A stretch of DNA of 47,326 nucleotides, from positions 1-47,326 of the forward strand of contig JAFAOG010000526.1 of the NCBI GenBank assembly GCA_019237945.1. The letters run 5' to 3'. How positions within the stretch are numbered: position 1 is the stretch's first letter; each line of letters opens with the position of its first letter. This DNA comes from Deltaproteobacteria bacterium (GTDB taxonomy: Bacteria; Myxococcota_A; Polyangia; Haliangiales; Haliangiaceae). Shown here piece after piece: positions 10,363 through 41,779 of the stretch. The notes under the pieces were generated by a model. The model saw only the letters and a list, made by a program, of their open reading frames with translations. It made no database searches and was not told where the DNA came from. Position numbers and translations under genes: made by a program.

Positions 10363-10926
10363 ATGTTTGGCATGGGCGGCAGCGAGATCCTCGTGATCTT
10401 GATCGTCGCGCTCCTGTTTCTGGGGCCTGACAAGCTGCCCGATGCCGCCAAGACGATCTCAAAGGGGATCCGCGACCTGAAGAAGCAGACGCGGGTGCTC
10501 CAGGAGACGATCGAGAACGACGAGCACATCGGCGGGGCGATCCGCGACCTCAAGAGCGCGCTCAACGGCGAGCCGGAGCCGCGGCCGGTCGTGCGCAAGC
10601 CGGCCACCCCCGCGAAGCTGCCCGACGGCGCCGTCGAGAATCAGATCCTGCCGCCGACCGAGGCTGCCGCGGAGTCGCCCGGTGGCGCGTTGCCGGCCGC
10701 GGAGTCTCCCGCTGCGGCGCCGCCCGCGTCTGCTCCGGCCGCACCGATCGCCGGCGCTCCCGAGCCCGCGGCAAGCGCGCCCGACGTCGCGGCCGAGCCG
10801 CCTGCGAAGCCGCCGATCACGCTGCCGGTCGCAGCGGGCGAGGGTGCGAAGGCTGTCGATGACGAGACGGCGCAGGAGCTCGCGAAGCTGATCAAGCCTG
10901 CTGCCGGGACGGTCGCGAAGTCGTAG
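10363..10926 (+). CDS. tatB: Sec-independent translocase protein TatB/TatA type
   Basis: The protein of 187 residues starts with MFGMGGSEILVILIVALLFL, a short N-terminal membrane helix. The hinge is GPDKLPDAAK and an amphipathic helix follows (ISKGIRDLKKQTRVLQETI), the standard TatA/B layout. A Glu near position 8 (GGSEIL) and the long Ala/Pro-rich C-terminal tail (about residues 70-187) favour the TatB role, the partner of TatC in the receptor complex for folded twin-arginine substrates. TatA-like function cannot be excluded because no second tatA/B gene is in the window. The tatC start follows 3 bp after the stop, so the two form an operon. Confidence 0.88.
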   Translation: MFGMGGSEILVILIVALLFLGPDKLPDAAKTISKGIRDLKKQTRVLQETIENDEHIGGAIRDLKSALNGEPEPRPVVRKPATPAKLPDGAVENQILPPTEAAAESPGGALPAAESPAAAPPASAPAAPIAGAPEPAASAPDVAAEPPAKPPITLPVAAGEGAKAVDDETAQELAKLIKPAAGTVAKS

Positions 10927-10929
10927 CTC

Positions 10930-11784
10930 ATGGCGAAGGAGAGCGTCGATCGCGAGACCGAGCTCGAAGCCGGTCGCATGCCGTTCCTGCAGCACCTGGC
11001 GGAGCTGCGAGACCGCGTGCGCAATGCGGCGATCGCGTTCGTTCTCGCGTTCCTCGTCTGCTGGTACTTCTCGAAAGAGATCCTGGCGTGGCTCGAGAAG
11101 CCGCTGCTCGACATCTGGAACCAGCACTGCGACGTCGCCGAGCAGGTGACCTGCCTCGGCCACGGGCTCGTCAAGGCGGGCACGAGCTGGGGCCCACCCA
11201 AGCTGATCTACACGGGCCTGACCCAGCCGTTCTGCGTCGACATGAGCGTCGGCATGTGGGCCGGCATCTTCGTCGCGTCGCCGATGATCTTCTATCAGCT
11301 GTGGCAGTTCATCGCGCCCGGCCTCTACAAGAAGGAGCGGCGCATCGGCGTCACGTTCGCCGTCGTCAGCGCGATCTTCTTCGTGTGCGGCGCGCTCTTC
11401 TGCTTCTACTTCGCGCTGCCCAAGCTCTACGACTTCCTGCTCTCGTACAACTCGCGCACGCTGCTGTCGCTGCCCAATCTCCAGGAGTATCTCGACCTGA
11501 CGCGCGACATGATGCTCGCGTTCGGCGCGATCTTCGAGCTGCCGCTGCTCATCTACTTCCTCGCGATGATCGGCGTCGTCACGCACCGCTCGCTGTGGAA
11601 GTTCAGCCGGTGGTTCATCGTGCTCGCGTTCATCATCGGCGCGGTCCTGACGCCCGGCCCCGATGTCGTGTCGCAGTTCATGATGGCGACGCCGATGATC
11701 GTCCTCTACAACATCTCGATCCTGTTCGCGTGGCGCGTCACCGTGAAGCGCGAGCGCAAACAGAAAGAGATGGAGCAGAGCTAG
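10930..11784 (+). CDS. tatC: Twin-arginine translocase subunit TatC
   Basis: TatC is the polytopic inner-membrane receptor for twin-arginine signal peptides. The 284 residues show the conserved N-terminal cytoplasmic motif FLQHLAELRDRV, six hydrophobic segments, and the family region YQLWQFIAPGLYKKERR, with FAFGAIFELPLLIYFL-like TM4 (FGAIFELPLLIYFLAMIG) and TPGPDVVSQFMMATPMIVLY near the end. The first periplasmic loop is longer than in E. coli and contains three Cys (NQHCDVAEQVTCLGHG and later PFCVDMS). The SDR protein at 44611 in this window carries a twin-arginine signal and is a possible substrate. The TAG stop shares the palindrome CTAG with the convergent gene's stop. Confidence 0.97.
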   Translation: MAKESVDRETELEAGRMPFLQHLAELRDRVRNAAIAFVLAFLVCWYFSKEILAWLEKPLLDIWNQHCDVAEQVTCLGHGLVKAGTSWGPPKLIYTGLTQPFCVDMSVGMWAGIFVASPMIFYQLWQFIAPGLYKKERRIGVTFAVVSAIFFVCGALFCFYFALPKLYDFLLSYNSRTLLSLPNLQEYLDLTRDMMLAFGAIFELPLLIYFLAMIGVVTHRSLWKFSRWFIVLAFIIGAVLTPGPDVVSQFMMATPMIVLYNISILFAWRVTVKRERKQKEMEQS

Positions 11785-24461: not shown

Positions 24462-27400
24462 TCAGTCGCACTTCGGCGTCGACGCCTCCAGGCGGCCGCC
24501 GCTGGCGATCAGCGGGACACGACAGGCGATTTCGCGGATGAGTGACGCAGCCGGTCGCGTGTCGAGTGGGATGTCGAGGAGGGCCGGCGAGCGCGAGGCG
24601 GCTTCGATCCGGCCGTCGGGCAGGAAGCGACCGCCCATCATGCCGTCGAGGACCTTGAAGTTGTAGACGAGGTCCTCGCCGGTGGCGCGGTCCCAGATCG
24701 TGAGCTGGCCGCGGGCGAGCCGGAGGATGAGGGAGCCGGTGGCGTCGAAGACGGGGACGCCGCCCGATTGCTCGGCGCTCTCGAGGTTGCGGGTGACGTC
24801 GCCGGTGGTCGTGTCGAGGATCGCGACCGCGCCGTTCGTCATCTGGGCGAGCGCCCAGTGCTGGTCGGGCGAGATCGCCATGTACTCGACGCGATCGTGG
24901 ACATCGACCTCGTGCACGACCTTGCCGTTCTGCAGGCGAAGGACCTTGCCCGCGCCGGTGCCGACGAGCGCGCCGCCCGCAATCGGCGCGACCGCGTAGA
25001 CGTCGGGCAGGTCCATCAGCTTGGTCAGCTGGTTCGTCGAGATCGTCCACTGCCAGAGCGCGGTCTTCTCCTCGCAGATGTAGACGTGGTCGGCGTCGAG
25101 GAAGCTCGGGTTGCCGAGGTGGCGGTCGCCGTGGGGGAGATGGGCGAGTGGCTTGCCGTCGGCGAGCACGGTCATGCCGTCGGCGTCGTTGACGATCGTG
25201 CGGCCGGAGACGCGATCGCGATCGGCGCTGTACAGCTCGTCGTTCTCGGGGAGCGTGCCGAGGAACGAGCGGCCGTCGTAGAGCTTCACGGGCTCGCCGG
25301 GGCACATGTACGCGTCGAGCGCGCCGGTGGGGCCGAAGCTCGGGTGCGCGCAGATGTCGGGATCGAACAGGAGCTGGTCGTCGGCGGCGGCCGCGATCAC
25401 GAACGAGCTGTCCTCGCCGAGCGAGGCGATCGCATCGCCGGTGCGCACGAGGTAGCGCGTGGGCGTGACGTGCGCGGGGCGCTCGCCGACGAGCAGGCCG
25501 TGCTTGTAGTGATGGACGATGCCGTCGTTGCCCGACGACCACACCTCGTCGCCTTGCATGACGAACTGATACTGCTCCTGCGCGATCGAGAACGTCAGGA
25601 TCGACTTGCCGGCCACGTCGTAGAGCGCGAGCTCGCGTTCGTTCGCGACGCCGACCTCGCCGTCGGCTCCCAGCGCGATCAGCTGCGGGCGGATCTCCGG
25701 CTTGAACGTGAAGCGCTCGGTGCCGTCGCTGCGCAGCACGTGGACCTTGTCGCTCTTGTCGATGAAGCCCGCGAACTGCCAGTCGGCGCTCGCCGCGATC
25801 TCGTTGCGCGCGTCGGTGGCGAGGACCCTGGTCGCGCCGGTCTGCAGGTCGAGGCGCGTGACCGTGTTGCCTTCCATGTAGAGCGCGGAGCGGCCATCGG
25901 GCGCAACGACCGGCTCGCCGGCGGATTGCTCGGTCGGGCCGCGGAGCGTCTTGTGGTCGCTTCCGTCGAAGCCGAGGATGTGGAAGCCACTGCGGTCGAG
26001 CGCGACGACCTCGTCGGCGTTGGGGCCAAGTGCCGCGAGCCACGGCTGCTCCTTGGTCTGGATCGTGTGCGCGATCTTGTGGTGCGCGTCGATCACGAGG
26101 ATCGCCTTCGACACGGGCGTGATGAGGCCGCCGTCGGGCGTCGGGTGCAGCTCGCTGACGAATGGCTGCTGGGTGTCGAGGTCGGCGAGCAGCGCGCCCT
26201 TGCCGTCGTACGTGCGGATGTGGCCTTGCTGATCGCCGGTGGCGAACCAGCCGTTGCCGGCGACGAGCATCTCGGTGCCGTGGCCGATCGAGACGTGGCG
26301 TTCGGCGCCGCGCCCGCGGTTCGCGATCGAGATCATCTGGCGCAGGCCGCGCGTGTCGGCGCCGCGCTCGAGCGCCGCACGGAAGTACGCGAGCGCCGCG
26401 AGCGGCCGGTTGTTCGTCAGCTCGCCGTGGCCGTAGCCGATCAGGCTCTGCGTCAGGCGATCTTCGGCGAGCGTGGCGGCTTGCTTCGCCTGCGTCGCGC
26501 TCGCCTCGGCCTGATGCTTGGACTCGGTCGCGGCGAGCGACAGATACGCCATCACGCCCGCGATGCCGGTGAGCGCGACCATCACGGCCGCGACGATGCC
26601 GCGGCGAATGCGGCGGGCGCGCTGCTGTGCGGCGACGGCGGCATCGGCGAACGCGCGCTCCTGCTCGGTCAGCGCGGTCGAACGCGCGGCGAGCCGGCGC
26701 AACTCGGCGAGCGCTTCGCCGCGCCACAGCAGGTCGGGGCGGCGGCCGGCTTCGTGCCAGCGCCGCGCGGCGGCATGGACGTCACCCATCAACGCGCGAT
26801 CGGCGGCGTCTTCGCTGCGCCAGCGCGCGAGTCGCGGCCAGCGCTCGGCGAGACACTCGTGGACGATCTCGACGACGGCTTCCCCAGGGGGGAGCCCCCC
26901 CTCCCCACCGGCAAAGCCGGTAGGGCCCCCACCCCCCCTTGGGCCTTCGTCGTCGCGCACGACGAGCAGGCGGGCGTCGATCAGGTGCGCGAGCACGCCG
27001 CGAGCACCGGGCAGCTGCTCGAGCTCGGCGCGCGCCGATGGGATGCGCGTGCCGTCGGCGGCGACGAGGCGCGCGAACAAGTCGCGCACGGTGTCCTGAT
27101 CGCGGCGCGCGAGCGAGGCGTAGAGCTGATCCGCGTACGTCGCGAGTGCACCGGCGACGCCGCCGAGCGCGAGGTAGGCATCGTGCGTGATCTTGCGCGC
27201 CTGCTTGTCGCGCGTCTGCCACAGCTGCGACGCCGTGAACGACAGCAGCGGCAGCGACGCGGGCCGGCCCGCGACCTCGGCGACCATGTCGTCGACGACC
27301 TGCGGCTCGACGGTGACGGCGGCGCGGCGCGCCGGCTCGACGACGATGCGGCGCAGCGCCTCGGGCGGCGGCGTCGCGAGCACGAACACCTCGAAGCGAC

Positions 27401-29636
27401 CGCGGAACGCCGCCTCCGCTTCGATCACCGTCGCGAAGTCATCGCGCAGGGTGGCGACGACGCGCACGGGCGCACCGGGCCCATCGGCGGCGGCGGCGAG
27501 CGTCTCGGCGAACCGGCGGCGCTCGTTCTCGTCGGCGCACAGCGTGACGAGCTCCTCGAGCTGATCGACGACGATCACGAGCCCGCGCTGCGCACTCTCG
27601 CCGAGCTCGCGCAGCCGCGTCACGAGCGCGCTCTCGTCCTGCGAGTCGCTCGACACCGGCGGCAGCGACGCGAGCACGTGCATCGGGTGGCGACCCGGCC
27701 GCATCGTCAGGATGCGGTGCTGCTCGCCGAGCCGCGGCACCACGCCGGCGTGAATGAACGAGCTCTTGCCGACGCCGCTGGGCCCCAGCACCGCGAGCAG
27801 CGGCGCGCGCACGAGCCGGTTCGCCAGGTTCTCGACCTCGCGCTCGCGCCCGACGAAGTGATCGGCATCGCGCTCGCGGTACGCGGCGAGCCCCGGATAC
27901 GGCGAGGCGTCGTCGGGCTCGTGCTGCGTGTCGCTGTCCTCGGTCGACAGCGCCGCGAGCCGCTGCCCGGCCGCATCGTCATCGCGCTCGAAGCCCCACG
28001 GCGCCGCCATCAGCCGCGCTGCGCCGCGCCCGCTGCGCCACAGCAGGAACAGCTCCGGCTCGCTCGAGGGCAGCGGCGCGATCACCTGCGCGAGCGGCGA
28101 CAGCCGCACCACGACGTGACCGCTCGCATCGAGCAGCGCGACCTCGCCATCGCGCAGCGGCTCGCCCCACACGAGCACGCGCTCGCGATCGCGCCGCCGC
28201 GGTCCCTGCCAGCTCTCGGCCGCCGCGCCCGCACCACCGACGACAAGGTGATACGCGAGCAGCGGCTCGAGCGGCTTCAGGGCCTCCGCCGCCGCCTCGA
28301 CATCCGCCGCCAGCGCCGCCGCGGTGCGCGCGCGATCGCGACCATCGACGCGCTCGGCAAGCTTCTCGAGCCCATCCGCCCCCGCGAGCGCCGCCGCCAG
28401 CCCGGGCAACGGCTGGGTGCACGCGAGCACGCTGGCGCGCGCGAGCTCGATCCACGGCGCGCCATCATCGCGTCCCACGACCGCACGCGCCCGCTCGCGC
28501 ACCGTCGCATCGAGCGTCGTCAGGTTCGACAGTGCGATCACGGCGAGCCACCGACACGTGATCGCGACGAGCTCTCGCAGCGCCGCATCCGCCTCGACGG
28601 TCGTCGTCGCGCCGGTCAGTCGCGCGATCGCATCAGCGATCGGTTGCGGGCCGGCGCGCAGCCACGCGTCGCGCGTCGCCGGATCGAACACGGGCACGTT
28701 CTCGGGTGCCCCGGTCCCCGCGCCGCGCCGGATCGCATCACCGAACGCGAGCGCGGTCTGCCAGCGGTCTTCCGGGCGCTTCGCGAGCGCACGCACGATC
28801 GACTCCGCGAGCGTCTTCGGCACGAAGTCCGGCGGTTCCGGGACCGCCGCCGCGCGATGCATCTCGACGAGCTCCGCGCGCTGCTCCGCGTGAAACGGCA
28901 GCTGCCCGCACACGCAGCGATACGCGAGCACGCCGAGCGCGTAGATGTCGCTGCGCGCGTCGACCTCGGCCGCCGAGTCCCACTGCTCGGGCGACATGTA
29001 GTGCGGCGAGCCGAGCGTCGTGCCGTGCCCGGTGAGCCCACCTTCGTCGACACCAGGCGCGCTCAGCACGTCCTCGGCCTTCGCGATGCCGAAGTCGAGC
29101 AGCTTCGGCAGCAGCTGCCCGGCGCGCTCGATCACCATCACGTTCGCGCCCTTGATGTCGCGATGGACCATGCCCATCTCGTGCGCCGTGTGCACGACCT
29201 CGCACAGCCGCGCGAACAGCGGCCCGAAGATGCTCGCCGGCATCGCGCCACGCCGCGCGATCAGCTCGTCGAGCGTCATGCCGCGCACGTGCTCCATTGC
29301 GATCCACAGCACGCCATCCGGCTCCGCGCCGAACGCGTACACGTGCGCCGCATACGGATGGTCGAGCCGGCTCGCGAGCTTCGCCTCGCGCAAGAACCGC
29401 TCGACGCGATTGGGCGCCGTCGCGACGTCGTGACGCAGAACCTTGATCACCGCGCTGCGCCCGAGCTGCGCTTGCTCCGCGCGAAACACCTCGCCGCTGC
29501 CGCCCTTCCCCAGCCGCTCGAGCAGCATGAACTTGCCGAGCGACCGACCGATCAGCTCAGGCGCAGCTGTCGCCCGCTCGACCGGCGACGCCGGCAAGAT
29601 CTCCGTCGACGGGTCATCAGACCGCGGAGCCCCCAC
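24462..29636 (-). CDS. Giant Ser/Thr kinase - STAND NTPase - beta-propeller membrane protein
   Basis: The 1724-residue protein starts with a Hanks-type kinase domain (about 34-305: GKGGSG 43-48, Lys65, HRDIKGAN with D160, DFG 181-183, SPE). A helical region (320-570) follows. Next is a STAND-type NTPase resembling nSTAND1, introduced by SPYPGLAAYRERDADHFVGR, with Walker A GPSGVGKSS (618-626) and Walker B LVIVVDQLEE (686-695). One TM helix (about 1013-1034) leads to a roughly 650-residue region of WD40/PQQ-like beta-propeller repeats with poor WD signatures. The propeller would lie outside the cytoplasm, with the NTPase and kinase inside. All kinase motifs are intact. The downstream FHA regulator is a plausible phospho-target reader. 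Residues about 897-919 derive from an inserted GC palindrome. GTG start; a -10-like TAGCAT lies 9 nt upstream. Confidence 0.93.
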   Translation of the reverse strand: MGAPRSDDPSTEILPASPVERATAAPELIGRSLGKFMLLERLGKGGSGEVFRAEQAQLGRSAVIKVLRHDVATAPNRVERFLREAKLASRLDHPYAAHVYAFGAEPDGVLWIAMEHVRGMTLDELIARRGAMPASIFGPLFARLCEVVHTAHEMGMVHRDIKGANVMVIERAGQLLPKLLDFGIAKAEDVLSAPGVDEGGLTGHGTTLGSPHYMSPEQWDSAAEVDARSDIYALGVLAYRCVCGQLPFHAEQRAELVEMHRAAAVPEPPDFVPKTLAESIVRALAKRPEDRWQTALAFGDAIRRGAGTGAPENVPVFDPATRDAWLRAGPQPIADAIARLTGATTTVEADAALRELVAITCRWLAVIALSNLTTLDATVRERARAVVGRDDGAPWIELARASVLACTQPLPGLAAALAGADGLEKLAERVDGRDRARTAAALAADVEAAAEALKPLEPLLAYHLVVGGAGAAAESWQGPRRRDRERVLVWGEPLRDGEVALLDASGHVVVRLSPLAQVIAPLPSSEPELFLLWRSGRGAARLMAAPWGFERDDDAAGQRLAALSTEDSDTQHEPDDASPYPGLAAYRERDADHFVGREREVENLANRLVRAPLLAVLGPSGVGKSSFIHAGVVPRLGEQHRILTMRPGRHPMHVLASLPPVSSDSQDESALVTRLRELGESAQRGLVIVVDQLEELVTLCADENERRRFAETLAAAADGPGAPVRVVATLRDDFATVIEAEAAFRGRFEVFVLATPPPEALRRIVVEPARRAAVTVEPQVVDDMVAEVAGRPASLPLLSFTASQLWQTRDKQARKITHDAYLALGGVAGALATYADQLYASLARRDQDTVRDLFARLVAADGTRIPSARAELEQLPGARGVLAHLIDARLLVVRDDEGPRGGGGPTGFAGGEGGLPPGEAVVEIVHECLAERWPRLARWRSEDAADRALMGDVHAAARRWHEAGRRPDLLWRGEALAELRRLAARSTALTEQERAFADAAVAAQQRARRIRRGIVAAVMVALTGIAGVMAYLSLAATESKHQAEASATQAKQAATLAEDRLTQSLIGYGHGELTNNRPLAALAYFRAALERGADTRGLRQMISIANRGRGAERHVSIGHGTEMLVAGNGWFATGDQQGHIRTYDGKGALLADLDTQQPFVSELHPTPDGGLITPVSKAILVIDAHHKIAHTIQTKEQPWLAALGPNADEVVALDRSGFHILGFDGSDHKTLRGPTEQSAGEPVVAPDGRSALYMEGNTVTRLDLQTGATRVLATDARNEIAASADWQFAGFIDKSDKVHVLRSDGTERFTFKPEIRPQLIALGADGEVGVANERELALYDVAGKSILTFSIAQEQYQFVMQGDEVWSSGNDGIVHHYKHGLLVGERPAHVTPTRYLVRTGDAIASLGEDSSFVIAAAADDQLLFDPDICAHPSFGPTGALDAYMCPGEPVKLYDGRSFLGTLPENDELYSADRDRVSGRTIVNDADGMTVLADGKPLAHLPHGDRHLGNPSFLDADHVYICEEKTALWQWTISTNQLTKLMDLPDVYAVAPIAGGALVGTGAGKVLRLQNGKVVHEVDVHDRVEYMAISPDQHWALAQMTNGAVAILDTTTGDVTRNLESAEQSGGVPVFDATGSLILRLARGQLTIWDRATGEDLVYNFKVLDGMMGGRFLPDGRIEAASRSPALLDIPLDTRPAASLIREIACRVPLIASGGRLEASTPKCD
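26883..26945. repeat. In-frame GC-rich palindromic insert in the giant kinase gene
   Basis: This stretch is unlike the flanking code: runs of C and G (AGGGGGGAGCCCCCCCT) and a perfect hairpin ACCGGC-AAA-GCCGGT. On the coding strand it reads GPRGGGGPTGFAGGEGG between two normal alpha-helical parts of the STAND region. It looks like a palindromic repeat element that inserted without breaking the frame. Its spread in the genome cannot be judged from one window. Confidence 0.6.
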
Positions 29637-34483: not shown

Positions 34484-35302
34484 ATGAGGATCGGGGCGTT
34501 GCTCCTGCTGGGAGCCTGCTACACGGGTGCGCGCGCGAATCGCGACGTCTCGATCGCCTGGCGCGGGCGCCCCGCCGCCGAGCTCGACGATCGCTGGGGC
34601 GCGCCGGCGCAGCAGCAAGGCCCGGTGCGCGTGTGGACGTTCCAGACCGAGCACATCGAGCTGCCCGACTTCGCGGCGCAGCTGCACCCGGTCGCGGCGG
34701 TCGCGCACGTCGACGGCCCCGGTATCAGCGGCACCGCGGTCGCGCAGGGCACGCAGCTCGATGTCGCGTGGCATCCGGGCGAGCTGCTGCGCGTGCATCA
34801 CTCGGCGGCGGCGCTGCTCGACGGGCCGACCGTCATCGACATGCAGGGCGAGGCGCTGCACTGGGGCCCACCGAACGACGCGAACATTCACTGGGGCACG
34901 CTGCTCGGCGCGCACGTCGGCATGGGCGTCGCGGGCAGCGCGGCGACGCCGCTGCCGTCGGGCCACGTCTATGTCGGCGGCATGCTGACGCCGACGATGG
35001 GTCTCGTCGGCAGCTACTCGTTCGTGTCGGCGACGGGCGACGCGGGCGCGGTGATCGATCAGGCAGCCGGCATCGCGGCGCAGTACTGGCCGGCGACGCG
35101 CATCGCGCTGCGCGCGGGACCCGCGCTGATCCTCGCGTCGAAGCCGGGCCTGACGGACTTCGCGCTGAAGCCCGGTGCGAGCGTGGGCGCGAGCTACGCC
35201 GCGATCAAGGTCGGCACGCTCGCGCTCGATGTCTACGCGGATGTGTGCGGGGGGCCGGGCGTCGCGTTCGGTTCGCTCGGCGTCGGCGTCAATTTGAATT
35301 GA
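34484..35302 (+). CDS. Lipoprotein with beta-barrel-like C-terminal half, unknown
   Basis: The 272-residue protein starts with MRIGALLLLGAC (Cys12). Residues 25-110 form a small beta domain (VRVWTFQTEHIELPDFAAQL). From about 140 to the end the pattern of alternating Gly/aromatic strands (HVGMGVAGSA, HVYVGGMLTPTMGLVGSYSF, LALDVYADVC) resembles an outer-membrane beta-barrel. No family recognised. The final 14 bp overlap the convergent SecD/SecY fusion gene (35289-35302). Confidence 0.75.
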   Translation: MRIGALLLLGACYTGARANRDVSIAWRGRPAAELDDRWGAPAQQQGPVRVWTFQTEHIELPDFAAQLHPVAAVAHVDGPGISGTAVAQGTQLDVAWHPGELLRVHHSAAALLDGPTVIDMQGEALHWGPPNDANIHWGTLLGAHVGMGVAGSAATPLPSGHVYVGGMLTPTMGLVGSYSFVSATGDAGAVIDQAAGIAAQYWPATRIALRAGPALILASKPGLTDFALKPGASVGASYAAIKVGTLALDVYADVCGGPGVAFGSLGVGVNLN

Positions 35303-37631
35303 GCAGCGTGCGTGCGGCCGGCACGTGCTCGGTCGGCACGAGGACATCGATCGCCGCAAACGCACCGAAGCCGCCGAGGATCGTGCGGACGTGCGCGCTC
35401 GCGAGGTGACACGGGATGCCGGCATCGCGGAGCTGGCGCTCGACCGCCTCCGCGCGCTGCGCCGAGTGCACCGTCCACACCGGATCGAGCTCGATGCGGC
35501 GGGCGCGCCAGTCGTCGAACGCGTCGAGCGCAAACGCCGCGATGATCGCCATCGTGATCGGATCGACGATCGTCGGCGACTTCGAGCCGAGCGCGACCAT
35601 GCCGCTGACGACCGCGAGCGCGGCGAGCGAGAGCATCGTCGCACGGCCCCACGAGCGCCACGACACGCCCGTCGACGGCGGCCACGCGAATGCCGCCGAC
35701 CACAGCACGACGAACACCGCCGCAACGGCATCGGCCGCGCCGGCGTGCGCGTGGAGGTACTCGACGGCATCCCACGTCCGCGACACGACCGGGTTGTCAT
35801 TGATCCAGGCGAGCGCGCCGAACACGAGCACGACGCCCGCCCCCTGCGCGAGCGGGATGATGCCCGAGGTCGGGACGCGCAGCCGGCGCTCGCCGACGCC
35901 GTAGATCCGCCAGCGCAGAAAGATCGCGACGGGCACCGCGAGCGAGATCGCCTGGAACACGAGGAACGCCATCGACGCGTTCGGCACGTGCGCGAAGCCT
36001 TTGACGACGAGCACCGCCCAGCCGCCGGCGATCAGCGCCGCGTAGCCGTTGCCGAGGCCCCAGTTGCGAATGATCGTCGCGACGCCCGCGAGGAACGCCG
36101 TCGCGGCCCCGAACGCGACCACGACCTCGAGGCGCGCCATCGCTGACGGCTCCATCAGATCGTCGTACGTGATCGATTGCAGATATGTCGTCAGCGTCCA
36201 CGCCTGCAGCGCGGTGAGCAGGATCGCGAGCACGACGAACGCGTCGCGGATCGGACGCCGCGCCTCCGAGCCCGCGTGCCGGCGCTTGCGCCACACGGTG
36301 ACCGCGAGCAGCTCGGCGAGCAGGTACGCGCCGATCAGCGGGGTCAGGCCGATCGCGCCGAGGTTCAGGTGATCGCGGGCGAGCGCCTCCTTCGACACCG
36401 TCGGGATCGGCAGGTACGACAGTGCGAGCACGGCCGCCGGCGCGAGCAGCGTCACGAGTACTCGCGAGACCGGCAGCGGCCCCGGCGCGATCGCCGGGAT
36501 GCGACGCCGCACCGGACGCAGCGCGCGCACGATCCACCACACGAACGCGCCGATGCCGACGCCGCCGGCGAGCCCGAGCAGTGCGCGGCCGAGCCACATC
36601 TGCAGCGTCGTGTCGGTCGGCGCCATCACGTCTTGCGACACCAGCGCGCCCCCCGCCGGCAGCGACCCCGCCTTGAGCACCTTGACCAGCACGTCGCGAT
36701 CGCGCTCCTGCTTCGCCGGATCGCCGCCGCCCATCGTGATCACGGCGCGACCGCCGCGGATCGTACCGTTGATCACCGGTGCCGAGCGCACCTCGTCGCC
36801 GCTGCAGATCGCGAGCTTCTTGCCGACGATGCGCGTCGTCAGGTCGCCGAAGATCTGCGCGCCCTCGCGCGTCATGTCGACCGAGACGACCGGCCGGTTC
36901 GTGTTCGGATCGTAGGTTCCGACCGCGTTCGCGACGCCCTCGCCATCGAAGCCGACCGCATCCGCGAGCATGTACGTGCGCCAGTACGTGCCGTTCTCGG
37001 TCTCGACGCGCTCGTAGCCGACGTGCGCCGCCGGGGGCGGTGACCAGCCGAGCGAGCGTGCCTTGTCGAGCGCCGCGCCGAGCTCGTCGGTCGTGCGCGC
37101 GCGCAGGTAGTAGTCGGTGTGCACGCCGCCGCCGCCTTCGGGGCGCCACTGGTCGACCTCGGCGTCGAGCGGCCACTGATCTTTCATCGGCAGAGCCAGC
37201 AGCGAGACCAGGCGCTTCATCTCGTCGGTCTCGAGCACCTCGTGGAACTCGAGGCGCTTCTGCGTGAGGCCCTCGGCGACGGCGTGGATCTCGTCCGCGG
37301 TGACGCCGCCGAGCAGGATCTCGACCGTCCCGTCGCTGCGCAGCACGGTCGTCGTGCCGTGCGCATCGAGCTCGTCCGTGACGCGGCGCAGGTCGTAGCC
37401 CGGCGGTGGCTGCCAGACGAGGCGCGCACCCCCATACCGACCGACCGCGTCCCCGCGCCCGCCGGCGAACCGCACGAATCGCCCGGGCACCGGCTGCGCC
37501 CAGTACACGACGACGAGGTACACGGCCGCGAGCAGCCCTCCGATGACGCCCGCCCGCAGCGGACGCACCGGCACGAATTCGTCGTCGGGTTTCGGCTCGA
37601 CGCCACTGGCTACCGCAGTAGGCAACGTCAT
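35289..37631 (-). CDS. SecD-head / SecY-fold / DUF2007-like fusion membrane protein
   Basis: The 780-residue protein joins parts of three families. (1) Residues 24-46 TM, then a periplasmic region whose end (246-326) matches the SecD P1 head: RPVVSVDMTREGAQIFGDL, GKKLAICSGDEVRSAPVING and VLVKVLKAGSLPAG; a TM follows (345-368), as in SecD. (2) Residues 388-710 follow SecY helix by helix: SYLPIPTVSKEAL (TM1), LNLGAIGLTPLIGAYLLAEL (TM2), GLGNGYAALIAGG (TM4-5), LRVPTSGIIPLAQG (before TM7) and a last TM ending in ALDAFDDW. (3) Residues 714-780 resemble the small DUF2007 domain (VWTVHSAQRAEAVERQLRDA). SecD TM3-6 are absent. It could be a specialised export channel or a regulator; the family calls are by motif only. 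ATG 37631 avoids overlap with the divergent lipoprotein. Confidence 0.8.
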   Translation of the reverse strand: MTLPTAVASGVEPKPDDEFVPVRPLRAGVIGGLLAAVYLVVVYWAQPVPGRFVRFAGGRGDAVGRYGGARLVWQPPPGYDLRRVTDELDAHGTTTVLRSDGTVEILLGGVTADEIHAVAEGLTQKRLEFHEVLETDEMKRLVSLLALPMKDQWPLDAEVDQWRPEGGGGVHTDYYLRARTTDELGAALDKARSLGWSPPPAAHVGYERVETENGTYWRTYMLADAVGFDGEGVANAVGTYDPNTNRPVVSVDMTREGAQIFGDLTTRIVGKKLAICSGDEVRSAPVINGTIRGGRAVITMGGGDPAKQERDRDVLVKVLKAGSLPAGGALVSQDVMAPTDTTLQMWLGRALLGLAGGVGIGAFVWWIVRALRPVRRRIPAIAPGPLPVSRVLVTLLAPAAVLALSYLPIPTVSKEALARDHLNLGAIGLTPLIGAYLLAELLAVTVWRKRRHAGSEARRPIRDAFVVLAILLTALQAWTLTTYLQSITYDDLMEPSAMARLEVVVAFGAATAFLAGVATIIRNWGLGNGYAALIAGGWAVLVVKGFAHVPNASMAFLVFQAISLAVPVAIFLRWRIYGVGERRLRVPTSGIIPLAQGAGVVLVFGALAWINDNPVVSRTWDAVEYLHAHAGAADAVAAVFVVLWSAAFAWPPSTGVSWRSWGRATMLSLAALAVVSGMVALGSKSPTIVDPITMAIIAAFALDAFDDWRARRIELDPVWTVHSAQRAEAVERQLRDAGIPCHLASAHVRTILGGFGAFAAIDVLVPTEHVPAARTLLNSN

Positions 37632-38625: not shown

Positions 38626-39357
38626 CTACCGTCGCTGCCGCCGGAAGTACTCGCGCGCGACGTCGGTCTTCGGATTCGCGACGACCTCCGCCGGCGGCCC
38701 GTCCTCCGCGATCGTGCCGCGATCGATCACCCACACGCGGCTCGCGATATCGGTCGCGAACTGCATCTCGTGGGTGACGACGAGCATCGTCATGCCGCGC
38801 GTCGCGAGGTCCTTGATCACGGCCATCACCTCGTCGCGCATCTCCGGATCGAGCGCGCTCGTCGGCTCGTCGAACAGCAGCACCTCGGGGTCCTGCGCGA
38901 GCGCCCGCGCGATCGCGACGCGCTGCTGCTGCCCGCCGCTGAGCTCGTGCGGATACGCGCCGTGGCGATCGCCGAGCCCCACCCGCTCGAGCAGCTCGCG
39001 CCCCCGCCGGGCCGCCGCACCGCGCTCGACGCGCCGCACGATCTGAGGCGCGAGCGCGATGTTCTCGAGCGCCGTCAGGTGCGGGAACAGGTTGAACTGC
39101 TGGAACACCATGCCGACCTTGGTGCGCAGGCCGCGTAGATCGGCGTCGCGCTTGCCCGGCGCGAGCGTCGCGCCCGCGATCACGACCTCGCCCGCATCGA
39201 ACGACTCGAGGTAGTTGAGGCAGCGCAGCAGCGTCGACTTGCCGCCGCCGCTGGGGCCGACGATCGCGATCGTCTCGCCCTTGGCAACCTCCGCCGACAC
39301 ATCGCGCAGCACCTCGCGCGTGCCGTGCCGCTTAGAGAGCTTGCGGACGCTGATCAC
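38626..39357 (-). CDS. Polar amino acid ABC transporter, ATP-binding protein
   Basis: The ATPase of a GlnQ/HisP-type importer has 243 residues with all motifs: Walker [11 protein letters not shown]-loop [12 protein letters not shown], signature LSGGQQQR, Walker [15 protein letters not shown] and H-loop VVTHEMQFA. Length is normal. Its GTG start lies within the 3' end of the binding-protein/permease gene (26-bp overlap), so the two are translationally coupled. Together they make a two-gene importer. The ligand (polar amino acid) is inferred from family membership; GlnQ-type enzymes serve Gln, Glu, Arg or His systems. A strong terminator follows downstream. Confidence 0.95.
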
Positions 39358-40789
39358 GCGCCAGCCTCCTCTCGAGCCGCCGCGCCAGTTCCGACAGCGG
39401 GAAGCTCAGCGCGAGATAGAGCCCCGCGCACAGAAGGCCCGGCACGAGCCAGCCGCGCAGATCGACCGCCGCGATCGTCATTCGCTTCGTCAGCTCGATC
39501 ACCGTGATCACGCTGACCAGCGACGAGTCCTTCAGCAACGAGACGAAGTCGTTCGTCATCGGCGGCAGCGCGAGCCGCAGCGCCTGCGGCAGCAGGATGT
39601 GTTGCAGCGTCTGCACCGGCGACATGCCGAGCGCCTTCGCCGCCTCGGTCTGGCCGCGCGGGATCGCCAGGAGGGCCCCGCGATAGACCTCGGCCTCGTA
39701 CGCGCCGTAGTTCAACCCGAGCCCGAGCACGGCCGCCGTCACCGGCGCGAGCGAGTAGTACGGCGCGAGCCCGTAGTAGAGGACGAACAGCTGCAGCAGC
39801 ACCGGCGTGCCGCGGAACAGCTCGATGTACACGCGCGCGAGCCCGCCCCACACCGGCCCGCAGAACACGCGCGCGACCGCGAGCAGGATCCCGATCGGCA
39901 CCGCGAGCAAGAACGCGAGCACGCTCAGCTTCAACGTGACGAGCGCGGCATCGACGAACTGCCACACCATCGCCGCATCGACGGTGCGCGACCGCGTGAC
40001 ATCGGCGATCGCCGGCGGCGCGTCGGTCTGCCGCTTGTCCCACAGCTTGTTCTTCTCGAGGATCCGCTGCAGCTCGCCGTCGGCGCGCATCGCATCGAGC
40101 GCCGAATCGATCGCGCGCTTGAGATCCGGATCGCTCCGGCGGATACCGATCACGTACGTGCCGCGCGCGACCTCCGCCGGCAGGCACGTGATCCCCGCGC
40201 GCGGACAGCCGTAGCGGTCGGCGATGATGTTGTCGAGCAGCACGCCGTCGAGCCGGCCCTGCTCGAGATCGAGGTACGGCTCCTCGTTGCCCTCGTAGAG
40301 CACCGGCTCGAAGCCCGCCGCGCGCAGCAGGTCGTGGGCGTACGTCTGGTTGAGCGTGCCGACGCGCTTGTTCTTGAGATCGGCGAGGGACGTGTACGGC
40401 GCGCCCTTTCGCACCGCGAGCGTCTCCGCATAGATGAAGTACGGCGCCGACAGCAGGATCCGATCGGCGCGATCCTTCGTCGCCTCGAGGCCGTTCATCG
40501 CGATGTCGAAGTCGCCGCGCTCGAGGCTGGGGACCAGGTTGCTCCAGTTGTACTGGACCATCTTGGCCTTCACGCCGAGCCGGCGCGCGAGCGCATCCAT
40601 GATGTCGACCTCGAACCCGATCAGGTGACTGGGGTTCTGCGGGTCCTCGTACAGGTAAGGCTCCCCACCTTGGACGTCGGCGCCCCACGTGATCTCGCCA
40701 CGCTGCTTGATGTGGGCAAGCGTGCTCCCGTGCTCGTCGCCACTGCAGGCAGCGAGCACGATCCACAGCGCAAGCAACGCGCGGCTCAC
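39332..40789 (-). CDS. Fused amino acid-binding lipoprotein and ABC permease
   Basis: The 485-residue protein combines a substrate-binding domain (about 25-260, SBP family 3: LIGFEVDIMDALARRLGVKA, MNGLEATKDRADRILLSAPY, LDGVLLDNIIADRYG) and a HisM/GlnP-type permease (about 275-485) with the EAA loop EAAKALGMSPVQTLQHILLP. Such SBD-TMD fusions are known in Gram-positive GlnP. Here the protein also has a lipobox (MSRALLALWIVLAAC, Cys15), so the binding domain would sit on the outer face of the inner membrane. GTG start at 40789 chosen from the signal peptide; the frame is open much further upstream but runs antisense to the next gene. Divergent from the diiron protein gene with 27 bp between starts. 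Confidence 0.92.
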   Translation of the reverse strand: MSRALLALWIVLAACSGDEHGSTLAHIKQRGEITWGADVQGGEPYLYEDPQNPSHLIGFEVDIMDALARRLGVKAKMVQYNWSNLVPSLERGDFDIAMNGLEATKDRADRILLSAPYFIYAETLAVRKGAPYTSLADLKNKRVGTLNQTYAHDLLRAAGFEPVLYEGNEEPYLDLEQGRLDGVLLDNIIADRYGCPRAGITCLPAEVARGTYVIGIRRSDPDLKRAIDSALDAMRADGELQRILEKNKLWDKRQTDAPPAIADVTRSRTVDAAMVWQFVDAALVTLKLSVLAFLLAVPIGILLAVARVFCGPVWGGLARVYIELFRGTPVLLQLFVLYYGLAPYYSLAPVTAAVLGLGLNYGAYEAEVYRGALLAIPRGQTEAAKALGMSPVQTLQHILLPQALRLALPPMTNDFVSLLKDSSLVSVITVIELTKRMTIAAVDLRGWLVPGLLCAGLYLALSFPLSELARRLERRLARDQRPQAL

Positions 40790-40804
40790 GGCGCGAGTAT
40801 GCAG

Positions 40805-40810
40805 TAAAAT
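40805..40810 (+). promoter_or_regulatory. -10 hexamer TAAAAT for diiron-protein cassette
   Basis: TAAAAT is close to consensus and ends exactly 6 nt before the ATG at 40817, which has no Shine-Dalgarno. It lies in the 27-bp divergent gap with the ABC importer gene. Confidence 0.6.
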
Positions 40811-40816
40811 ACCCAC

Positions 40817-41779
40817 ATGGACCTGGCGCGCATGCTCGACAAATGCGTCCGCGACCAGTGGTCGATCGACGACCTCGACTGGACGATCCCGCCGCCGAAG
40901 ATGCCGCGCGACAAGGAGGAGGCGGTCGTCCAGGCGTTCGTCGACATGGCCGGCATCGAGCTGCTCGCCGGCGCGCTGTTCGATGTGCAGCGCAAGAAGA
41001 CCGCAGACCCGACGTTGCGCAAGATCTTCTCGACGTTCGTCGCCGACGAGAAGCGCCACTCGGCGGTCGCCGCGCGCCTCGCCCAGCACTACGACGTCCA
41101 CCACTACCGCACGTACACCGAGTCTCCCGCGCTGACCGATTTCCGCCCGCACTTCCTCGCGCTCGTCGAGAAGGCCTCGCCGGAGATCGCGAACGCGTAC
41201 ATCACGTCGGGCGAATTGATCCTCGACGTCGCGCTGCTCCGCTCGCTCGACGACTATGTCGCCGACGACATGTCCGCGCGCGCGATGCACCTGATCAACC
41301 GCGACGAGTCGCGCCACATCGCGATCGACTTCCACATGACGGAGCACTACTGCTCCGACGAGCACCTCGCGGAGATCCGCAGCCGCCCGCGCCCGCCGGT
41401 GCGCGAGATGGCCGCCGGCGTCGCCGCGCTCGCGCGCATGATGTGGCACGCCAAGCCGTTCCTCCAGCAGGTGTTCCTCGCGCCGATGGACCGCACGGAT
41501 CCCTCGGGCCGCCGCGTACAGGAAGCGTTCAAGCGCATCCAGCTCGTGCTGCGCAAGCCGACGGTCGCGCGCACGCCGTGGTCGAAGATGATGATCGGCT
41601 TCCAGGACCTCTACAACCACCCGGTCATCGGCAAGGTCCTCGGCCGCGTGCTGCTGCGCTTGCTCGGCGCGGAGGATCGCGCCGCACGCATCCTGTTCAC
41701 GAAGGAAGAGCTCGCGCGCACCGAGCGCATGAGCTTCGACGAGCTCGCCGAAGAAGCGCTCGCGGTCAAGTACTCGTGA
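40817..41779 (+). CDS. Ferritin-like diiron protein (AurF-like oxygenase candidate)
   Basis: The 320-residue helical protein carries two sets of iron ligands: E48, then E78 and H81 in ADEKRH, E133 in SGELILD, and E164 with H167 in NRDESRHIAIDFH (H173 near). This is the arrangement of ferritin-like diiron oxygenases, including AurF-type N-oxygenases, and of ribonucleotide reductase-like enzymes. The substrate is not evident. The C-terminal 100 residues are specific to this protein. The gene starts a coupled cassette: its stop overlaps the start of the APH-fold kinase gene by GTGA (41776-41779). Sulfation or phosphorylation of its product is therefore conceivable, but that is inference. Confidence 0.8.
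   Translation: MDLARMLDKCVRDQWSIDDLDWTIPPPKMPRDKEEAVVQAFVDMAGIELLAGALFDVQRKKTADPTLRKIFSTFVADEKRHSAVAARLAQHYDVHHYRTYTESPALTDFRPHFLALVEKASPEIANAYITSGELILDVALLRSLDDYVADDMSARAMHLINRDESRHIAIDFHMTEHYCSDEHLAEIRSRPRPPVREMAAGVAALARMMWHAKPFLQQVFLAPMDRTDPSGRRVQEAFKRIQLVLRKPTVARTPWSKMMIGFQDLYNHPVIGKVLGRVLLRLLGAEDRAARILFTKEELARTERMSFDELAEEALAVKYS

Follow-up and report, generated by a model that had tools for sequence, protein, structure and literature searches.

A SecD P1 head, a plugless SecY paralogue and a DUF2007 domain on one chain in a myxococcotal genome

We analyzed a 47,326-nucleotide stretch of DNA from a Deltaproteobacteria bacterium of the family Haliangiaceae (assembly GCA_019237945.1, contig JAFAOG010000526.1, positions 1 to 47,326; hereafter the window). 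One of its genes (35289..37631, minus strand, like every feature of it given below) joins a SecD P1 region, a SecY fold, and a DUF2007 domain. The gene has 780 open codons followed by a stop, with its ATG at 37631 and its stop codon at 35289-35291, and the same start methionine is found in relatives P0003, P0005, and P0007. GC content at codon positions 1, 2, and 3 is 0.72, 0.51, and 0.90, computed over the longest, 840-residue frame. An initial annotation of this DNA had described a single chain made of a SecD P1 head between SecD-like transmembrane helices 1 and 2 (TM1 and TM2), SecY TM1 to TM10, and DUF2007. Pfam, profile comparison, and a predicted structure all agree with that description, and our confidence in the three-part architecture is very high.

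Pfam detected each part in the single sequence. SecDF_P1_head (PF22599) matched residues 218-326 (36654..36980; E 7.2e-18, 65 bits, cut-off 27), a span that also stands out by conservation. SecY (PF00344) matched residues 426-585 (E 4.3e-11, 43.2 bits, cut-off 32.2) with positions 4-155 of the 306 in its profile, roughly the N-terminal half, and DUF2007 (PF09413) matched residues 724-778 (E 3.3e-7, 30.8 bits, cut-off 25.7). The NCBIfam models for SecD (residues 207-339) and SecY (residues 422-552) scored far under their curated cut-offs because those are fitted to whole proteins and only parts are present here. Compared with solved structures, a family profile of 44 rows matched SecY (5ch4_Y, E 8.9e-33) over SecY residues 16-410, which is nearly its full length, and SecDF (3aqo_A) at E 1.7e-26. 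Thus, the SecY match on which the initial annotation had staked its proposal is real in both the single-sequence and the 44-row search. The SecY fold was likewise present when modeled: the usable AlphaFold model, built from the 44-row alignment, shows the ten-helix SecY fold and the SecD P1 fold, while a single-sequence model reached a predicted local distance difference test score (pLDDT) of only 42.4. The eight solved structures closest to the model by Z score are SecY in SecA complexes.

The P1 region lies between two transmembrane helices, as in SecD. TM1 spans residues 24-45 in the model (37497..37562; 27-45 by hydropathy) and is followed by the P1 base and head at residues 50-336 (36624..37484), which are predicted to be periplasmic. 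TM2 (residues 342-371, a helix in the model; 36519..36608) leads through a basic linker into SecY TM1, and residues 368-389 contain five lysines and arginines and no acidic residue. The chain switches to SecY directly after TM2, and the SecY-fold domain with its ten helices occupies residues 380-715 (35487..36494). The C-terminal DUF2007 part (residues 714-780; 35292..35492), recognized by PF09413 and by the model, in which residues 715-779 form alternating strands and helices, is predicted to be cytosolic. Hydropathy gave 12 transmembrane peaks along the chain and one further borderline peak (1.51) within DUF2007.

A search of 5.8 billion proteins returned, besides the window protein itself, 28 P1-bearing relatives (P0003-P0030; 33-78% identity), all of which were also matched by the SecY-like profile. 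The six closest (P0003-P0008) are 62-78% identical at full coverage, and two weaker matches are ordinary SecD/SecF domains. The organisms named by the source among the relatives are one Kofleriaceae and one Deltaproteobacteria. A profile scan of contigs with the family alignment gave at least three loci, from Myxococcales or Deltaproteobacteria; the contig scan queried with the single protein alone gave no match. The genome survey within the phylum covered 95 genomes, the window's own included, and P1 and a SecY-like part share one frame in at least 12 of them (G000, G002, G004, G007, G011, G012, G018, G019, G020, G025, G026, and G031; the G025 fusion is cut by a contig end). Occurrence is patchy: within the genus of the window, the fusion is carried by at least 6 of 16 genomes, its own among them, and within the family by at least 11 of 30. 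These counts are lower bounds, drawn from the part of the matches that was listed and the part that was fetched. The three-part fusion reported in the initial annotation thus recurs in other Myxococcota. With this many relatives and genomes, we rejected the explanation that the frame is an assembly or frameshift chimaera.

We placed the SecY part in a tree of 74 rows. The 22 canonical rows were the genome's own SecY, the top-scoring canonical matches, and the database proteins P0045 and P0046, which we judged canonical. The 52 paralogue rows were 31 from fusions (21 of the 32 fused proteins among P0002-P0042 and 10 locus proteins, leaving out near-copies, the fragment P0016, and L029, which is identical to P0030) and 21 stand-alone rows, which contain one identical pair (L025 and P0034). 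The branch that divides the two groups (support 100/100) has a length of 2.09 changes per site, and end branches among the paralogues are as long as 2.4. The SecY part has the ten-helix fold and does not group with canonical SecY, and these comparisons indicate that it is a fast-evolving paralogue and no recent copy of the canonical channel. An ordinary SecY orthologue was rejected on this split together with the losses of the plug, loops, and Arg357 detailed below. SecY-like paralogues without P1, about 380-540 residues long, occur in at least 10 of 282 genomes of the phylum searched, and one of these 10 (G347) has a P1 frame next door. Further stand-alone paralogues are L023, L025, L026, and additional database proteins, and the stand-alone L063 falls among the fusions in the SecY tree.

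In diverged members of the family, DUF2007 often scores under the Pfam cut-off, and the window protein lies above it. The cut-off was passed by one of four stand-alone paralogues (L026; L024 and L025 were under it, and L023 had no match) and by none of six further fusions (L033 and L030 under it; L031, L032, L035, and L036 unlisted). DUF2007 alone, searched with phmmer against solved structures, gave no match at E<=1. The family's own profile extends to the end of the tail, which suggests that the tail is one domain across the family, and its DUF2007 fold is a predicted one, read from the model.

Compared with SecY/Sec61-alpha (PF00344, TIGR00967), the fusion has no plug, a short cytosolic loop C4, a shorter loop C5, no Arg357, an altered pore ring, Glu in place of Gln93, and an extra C-terminal domain, besides its place on the other side of the 100/100 split. 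C4 and C5 are the loops of SecY at which SecA and the ribosome dock. To measure these spans, we aligned the paralogue rows to E. coli SecY and 21 canonical SecYs. For the plug (E. coli 57-76), the median length is 7 residues among the fusions (31 rows, range 5-19) and 9 among the stand-alone proteins (21 rows, 6-11), compared with 20 for the canonical rows (19-20), and the family profile has no counterpart to E. coli SecY residues 59-70. In the window protein, residues 419-427 (36351..36377), aligned by the family profile to E. coli span 57-80, are the remnant of this region. The C4 medians (E. coli 240-270) are 12 in fusions and 13 in stand-alone rows, and the C5 medians (E. coli 338-368) are 21 and 19, against 31 for either loop in all 21 canonical SecYs; thus, C5 is shortened by about a third in the fusions, with about two thirds left at the median. 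By the same comparison, the shortened loops of the window protein are residues 572-592 for C4 (35856..35918) and 648-660 for C5 (35652..35690), the latter aligned without Arg357. All 22 canonical rows have Arg357, as against 2 of the 52 paralogue rows; the C4 residues Tyr248 and Arg251, and Ile278 of the pore ring, are found in no paralogue row.

Other features of SecY are kept: Gly182 in 52 of the 52 paralogue rows, Gly186 in 51, Gly81 in 50, Pro84 in 49, Gln131 in 47, and Pro276 in 45. In SecY, most of these residues belong to the cytosolic vestibule or the lateral gate. At position 93 in TM2, 50 of the 52 paralogue rows carry Glu, whereas 21 of the 22 canonical rows carry Gln; in the window protein this paralogue-specific residue is, by alignment, Glu440 (36312..36314). 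Beyond the initial annotation, the SecY part thus proves to be a paralogue that lacks the plug and Arg357, along with most of C4 and a portion of C5. Plug-deletion mutants of SecY (2yxq and 2yxr; E. coli delta 60-74, PMC3689939) are likewise plugless channels. However, those are laboratory constructs, whereas the deletion in the fusion is natural, with Arg357 and most of C4 missing as well. In the open-licence literature, we found no paper on SecY and DUF2007 together, and the family was absent from the top-ranked titles and abstract starts on SecY paralogues and SecD-SecY fusions.

The initial annotation had placed the normal sec genes elsewhere in the genome, and we found canonical secY, secD, and secF there. 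In this assembly, which is about 94% complete, canonical secY lies on contig C201 (E 1.2e-114; its frame begins at the contig edge) and secD/secF with the resistance-nodulation-division (RND) membrane domain lie on C444. C10 and C198 each had a weak RND match in the same genome-wide search, which gave no secD/secF membrane-domain match within the window, in line with the annotated absence of secF nearby. A single SecA_DEAD match was found in the genome, on C629, and no second SecA. With SecA2/SecY2 systems (PMC5076819), the fusion shares the presence of a diverged SecY in addition to the canonical one. It differs from them in that no second SecA was found here and that no Asp-like genes were recognized among the scanned neighbors, among which no Asp-directed search was made.

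The SecD/SecF membrane domain (PF02355, RND type, with the proton relay) had no match in the fusion protein, which, unlike SecD/SecDF with their P1 (PF22599), continues into SecY instead. A proton wire involving SecD D519 and SecF R247 is held responsible for the movement of SecDF (PMC8669966). Because the proton-relay membrane domain is absent, the P1 head cannot pull as in SecDF. Therefore, of the earlier suggestion of a SecY paralogue with a pulling head, the paralogue stands, by the 100/100 split, and the pulling is not supported. The fusion also resembles the holotranslocon SecYEG-SecDF-YajC-YidC, in which a SecY channel is brought together with the SecD head (PMC8669966), but the holotranslocon has separate subunits and further partners, whereas the fusion is one chain with cut-back cytosolic loops. 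Across 38 fusion rows, which include near-copies, the P1 head is the most conserved domain, with a mean pairwise identity of 0.508, against 0.471 for DUF2007, 0.352 for the SecY part, and 0.351 for the P1 base.

In a tree of P1 heads, made by a quick method with labels assigned by a length rule and with the P1 of L094 excluded as too short, 10 of 11 SecD heads fall in one fork together with two rows cut by contig ends (support 96). The fusion heads form a separate fork (91), and many forks are weak. Stand-alone P1 proteins fall among the fusion heads. Proteins of this stand-alone kind, which have the P1 head but no other part of SecD, were seen at L038:2919-5025, L039, L040, L044, L045, L046, L049, L050, and L054; some are lipoprotein-like by eye, and two are adjacent in G005.

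The linkage of P1 and SecY paralogue is also found in the reverse order. In P0041, SecY (54-306) is followed by DUF2007 (399-452; 18.3 bits, cut-off 25.7) and the P1 head (617-700). One hydrophobic segment (481-499) precedes P1, and P1 would therefore again be outside despite the reversed order. In G347 (L094:3399-5514), the P1 frame directly follows and overlaps a SecY-like frame. The start of this P1 frame reads like the remainder of DUF2007, and the pair may be two genes or one frameshifted copy of the SecY-DUF2007-P1 order. In the SecY tree, P0041 and the G347 protein form a group (96/73), apart from the 30 forward fusions. This grouping suggests two separate joinings of P1 and the SecY paralogue. 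However, long branches meet in this tree, P0041 and the G347 protein among them, and a tree in which all P1-linked rows share one clade was not rejected by an approximately unbiased test (p 0.104).

In some genomes, the fusion is incomplete. In G022 (L037:5391-7121), P1 is followed by one helix and no SecY part, and its flanking genes resemble those at the full fusion of G019 (L035:5452-8388), a genome of the same genus; the SecY half was apparently lost naturally in G022. In G009, L039 is a short P1 protein which the P1-head tree places among the fusion heads. Two congeners, G008 (L047) and G013 (L048), hold fusion pieces only. Apparent DUF2007 pieces lie at L047:715-1494 and L048:6590-7012, and in L048 a P1 fragment continues straight into DUF2007, with the middle missing. 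The gene appears to be in the process of being lost in some congeners, and it looks accessory rather than essential. Apart from L035 and L037, we saw no common neighbor by eye in the gene lists of fusion or stand-alone loci, for which no all-against-all comparison was run.

What could such a chain do? The reading toward which we lean, tentatively, is that the plugless SecY fold with its SecD head and DUF2007 is an accessory channel or insertase that would work independently of SecA and the ribosome. Both halves would keep their native topology, with P1 in the periplasm above the SecY pore and DUF2007 in the cytosol at the place where SecA or the ribosome docks. A substrate, such as a segment of a membrane protein or an export intermediate that has stalled, would pass into the open vestibule and exit sideways via the lateral gate or into the periplasm. 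The P1 head may bind the emerging substrate and would prevent its backsliding, a Brownian ratchet with no proton-driven stroke, and DUF2007 would act as a regulator, gating or recruiting on the cytosolic side. In favor of this reading are the SecY and SecD P1 folds of the model, the spread and conservation of the fusion, which mark it as real and selected, the reduced docking loops, the core residues retained along with the new Glu at position 93, and the recurrence of the P1 linkage in the reverse order. The joint loss of the plug and Arg357 is coherent, since Arg357 likely couples the SecA ATPase cycle to plug opening (PMC6021171). That the fusion is, all together, a plugless, motor-free, one-chain Sec machine which works by trapping alone and whose parts were joined in both orders seems to us unlikely.

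Several observations weigh against an accessory channel or insertase, and some of them fit other explanations as well. The main rival, only slightly less likely, is a pseudo-translocase: a nonconducting SecY scaffold would hold P1 near the exit of SecYEG, and DUF2007 would report or regulate from the cytosol. Such a scaffold agrees with the altered plug, C4, and C5, with the patchy occurrence in the genus, and with the two changed residues of the pore ring. Of the six positions which we take to form that ring, and whose numbering is consistent with the alignment, 82, 86, 191, and 408 are mostly aliphatic in the fusions, but 187 is mostly Tyr (23 of 31 rows) and 278 mostly Ala or Ser (Ala, Ser, or Gly in 25 of 31). 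The SecY part is less conserved than the P1 head and DUF2007 and is, with the P1 base, the least conserved region of the chain; P1 also occurs without an adjoining SecY part in L037. The P1 frame without SecY in L039 and the mere pieces in L047 and L048 likewise count against a channel or insertase. Against a scaffold, the core SecY residues, together with Glu93 and Gln131, are nearly invariant over the 52 rows despite the long end branches, and the whole SecY fold seen in the model (P0002) would hardly be required for a mere anchor. A plug-deleted SecY conducts ions in bilayers (PMC3689939), and the fusion pore would therefore need another seal. Further points against a channel or insertase are the low model confidence of TM7, a lateral-gate helix (pLDDT 55-65), an N terminus ahead of TM1 that is not positive (two lysines and arginines, four acidic residues), and the lack of a P1 gene within the fetched stretch at 12 of 13 stand-alone SecY-like loci, which also speaks against a strict pairing of P1 and the paralogue. 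Another is the lack of any SecE (PF00584) match genome-wide at E<=1e-3, in a search that misses 2 of 14 controls; this agrees with the initial annotation, which had noted no secE nearby.

The independence from SecA and the ribosome is itself open to challenge. An R357E mutant of E. coli SecY still binds SecA (PMC6021171), and R357E leaves ribosome-induced opening unblocked (PMC3689939). Because Arg357 is not needed for docking, the case for a motor-free protein rests mainly on the shortening of C4 and C5. These data would suit a second ordinary translocase of the SecA2/SecY2 kind seen in Gram-positive bacteria, driven by SecA or the ribosome and serving few substrates, with P1 replacing SecDF; so would the complete SecY fold with its SecY-SecA structural neighbors, the canonical secY elsewhere in the genome, and the two thirds of C5 that are left. 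However, most of C4 is gone along with part of C5 and Arg357, only one SecA was found in the genome, and the scan of 13 other window proteins revealed no accessory Sec gene; we consider this explanation improbable. A decaying relic without function in this genome is more improbable by far. The fast evolution would fit it, as would the pieces in L047 and L048 and the P1 frames without SecY in L037 and L039. The window gene, however, has an intact frame and 28 relatives, the closest of them similar over full length, and its P1 head and DUF2007 are strongly conserved. Because core motifs and a new, near-invariant Glu were kept over 52 diverged rows, a dead relic is unlikely.

The plug and the cytosolic docking loops are regarded as basic to the working of SecY, and this lineage has reduced both while retaining core SecY residues and attaching the SecD head directly to the channel. 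It thus offers a natural experiment on the capabilities of a SecY fold in the absence of ordinary motor docking, and it poses the question of whether a SecD P1 head can act by trapping instead of proton-driven pulling. Transport by the fusion would mean that ratchet and motor are separated in the Sec pathway; without transport, it would be a SecY turned into a scaffold or a sensor.

Around the fusion gene, the only translocation genes in a Pfam scan of 13 other window proteins were TatA/B and TatC, side by side at 10363-11784. A 1,724-residue protein encoded at 24462-29636 has a protein kinase domain and an nSTAND1 NTPase domain. At 39332-41620, a solute-binding protein and ATP-binding cassette (ABC) permease domains share one frame, which adjoins an ABC ATPase gene at 38626-39357.

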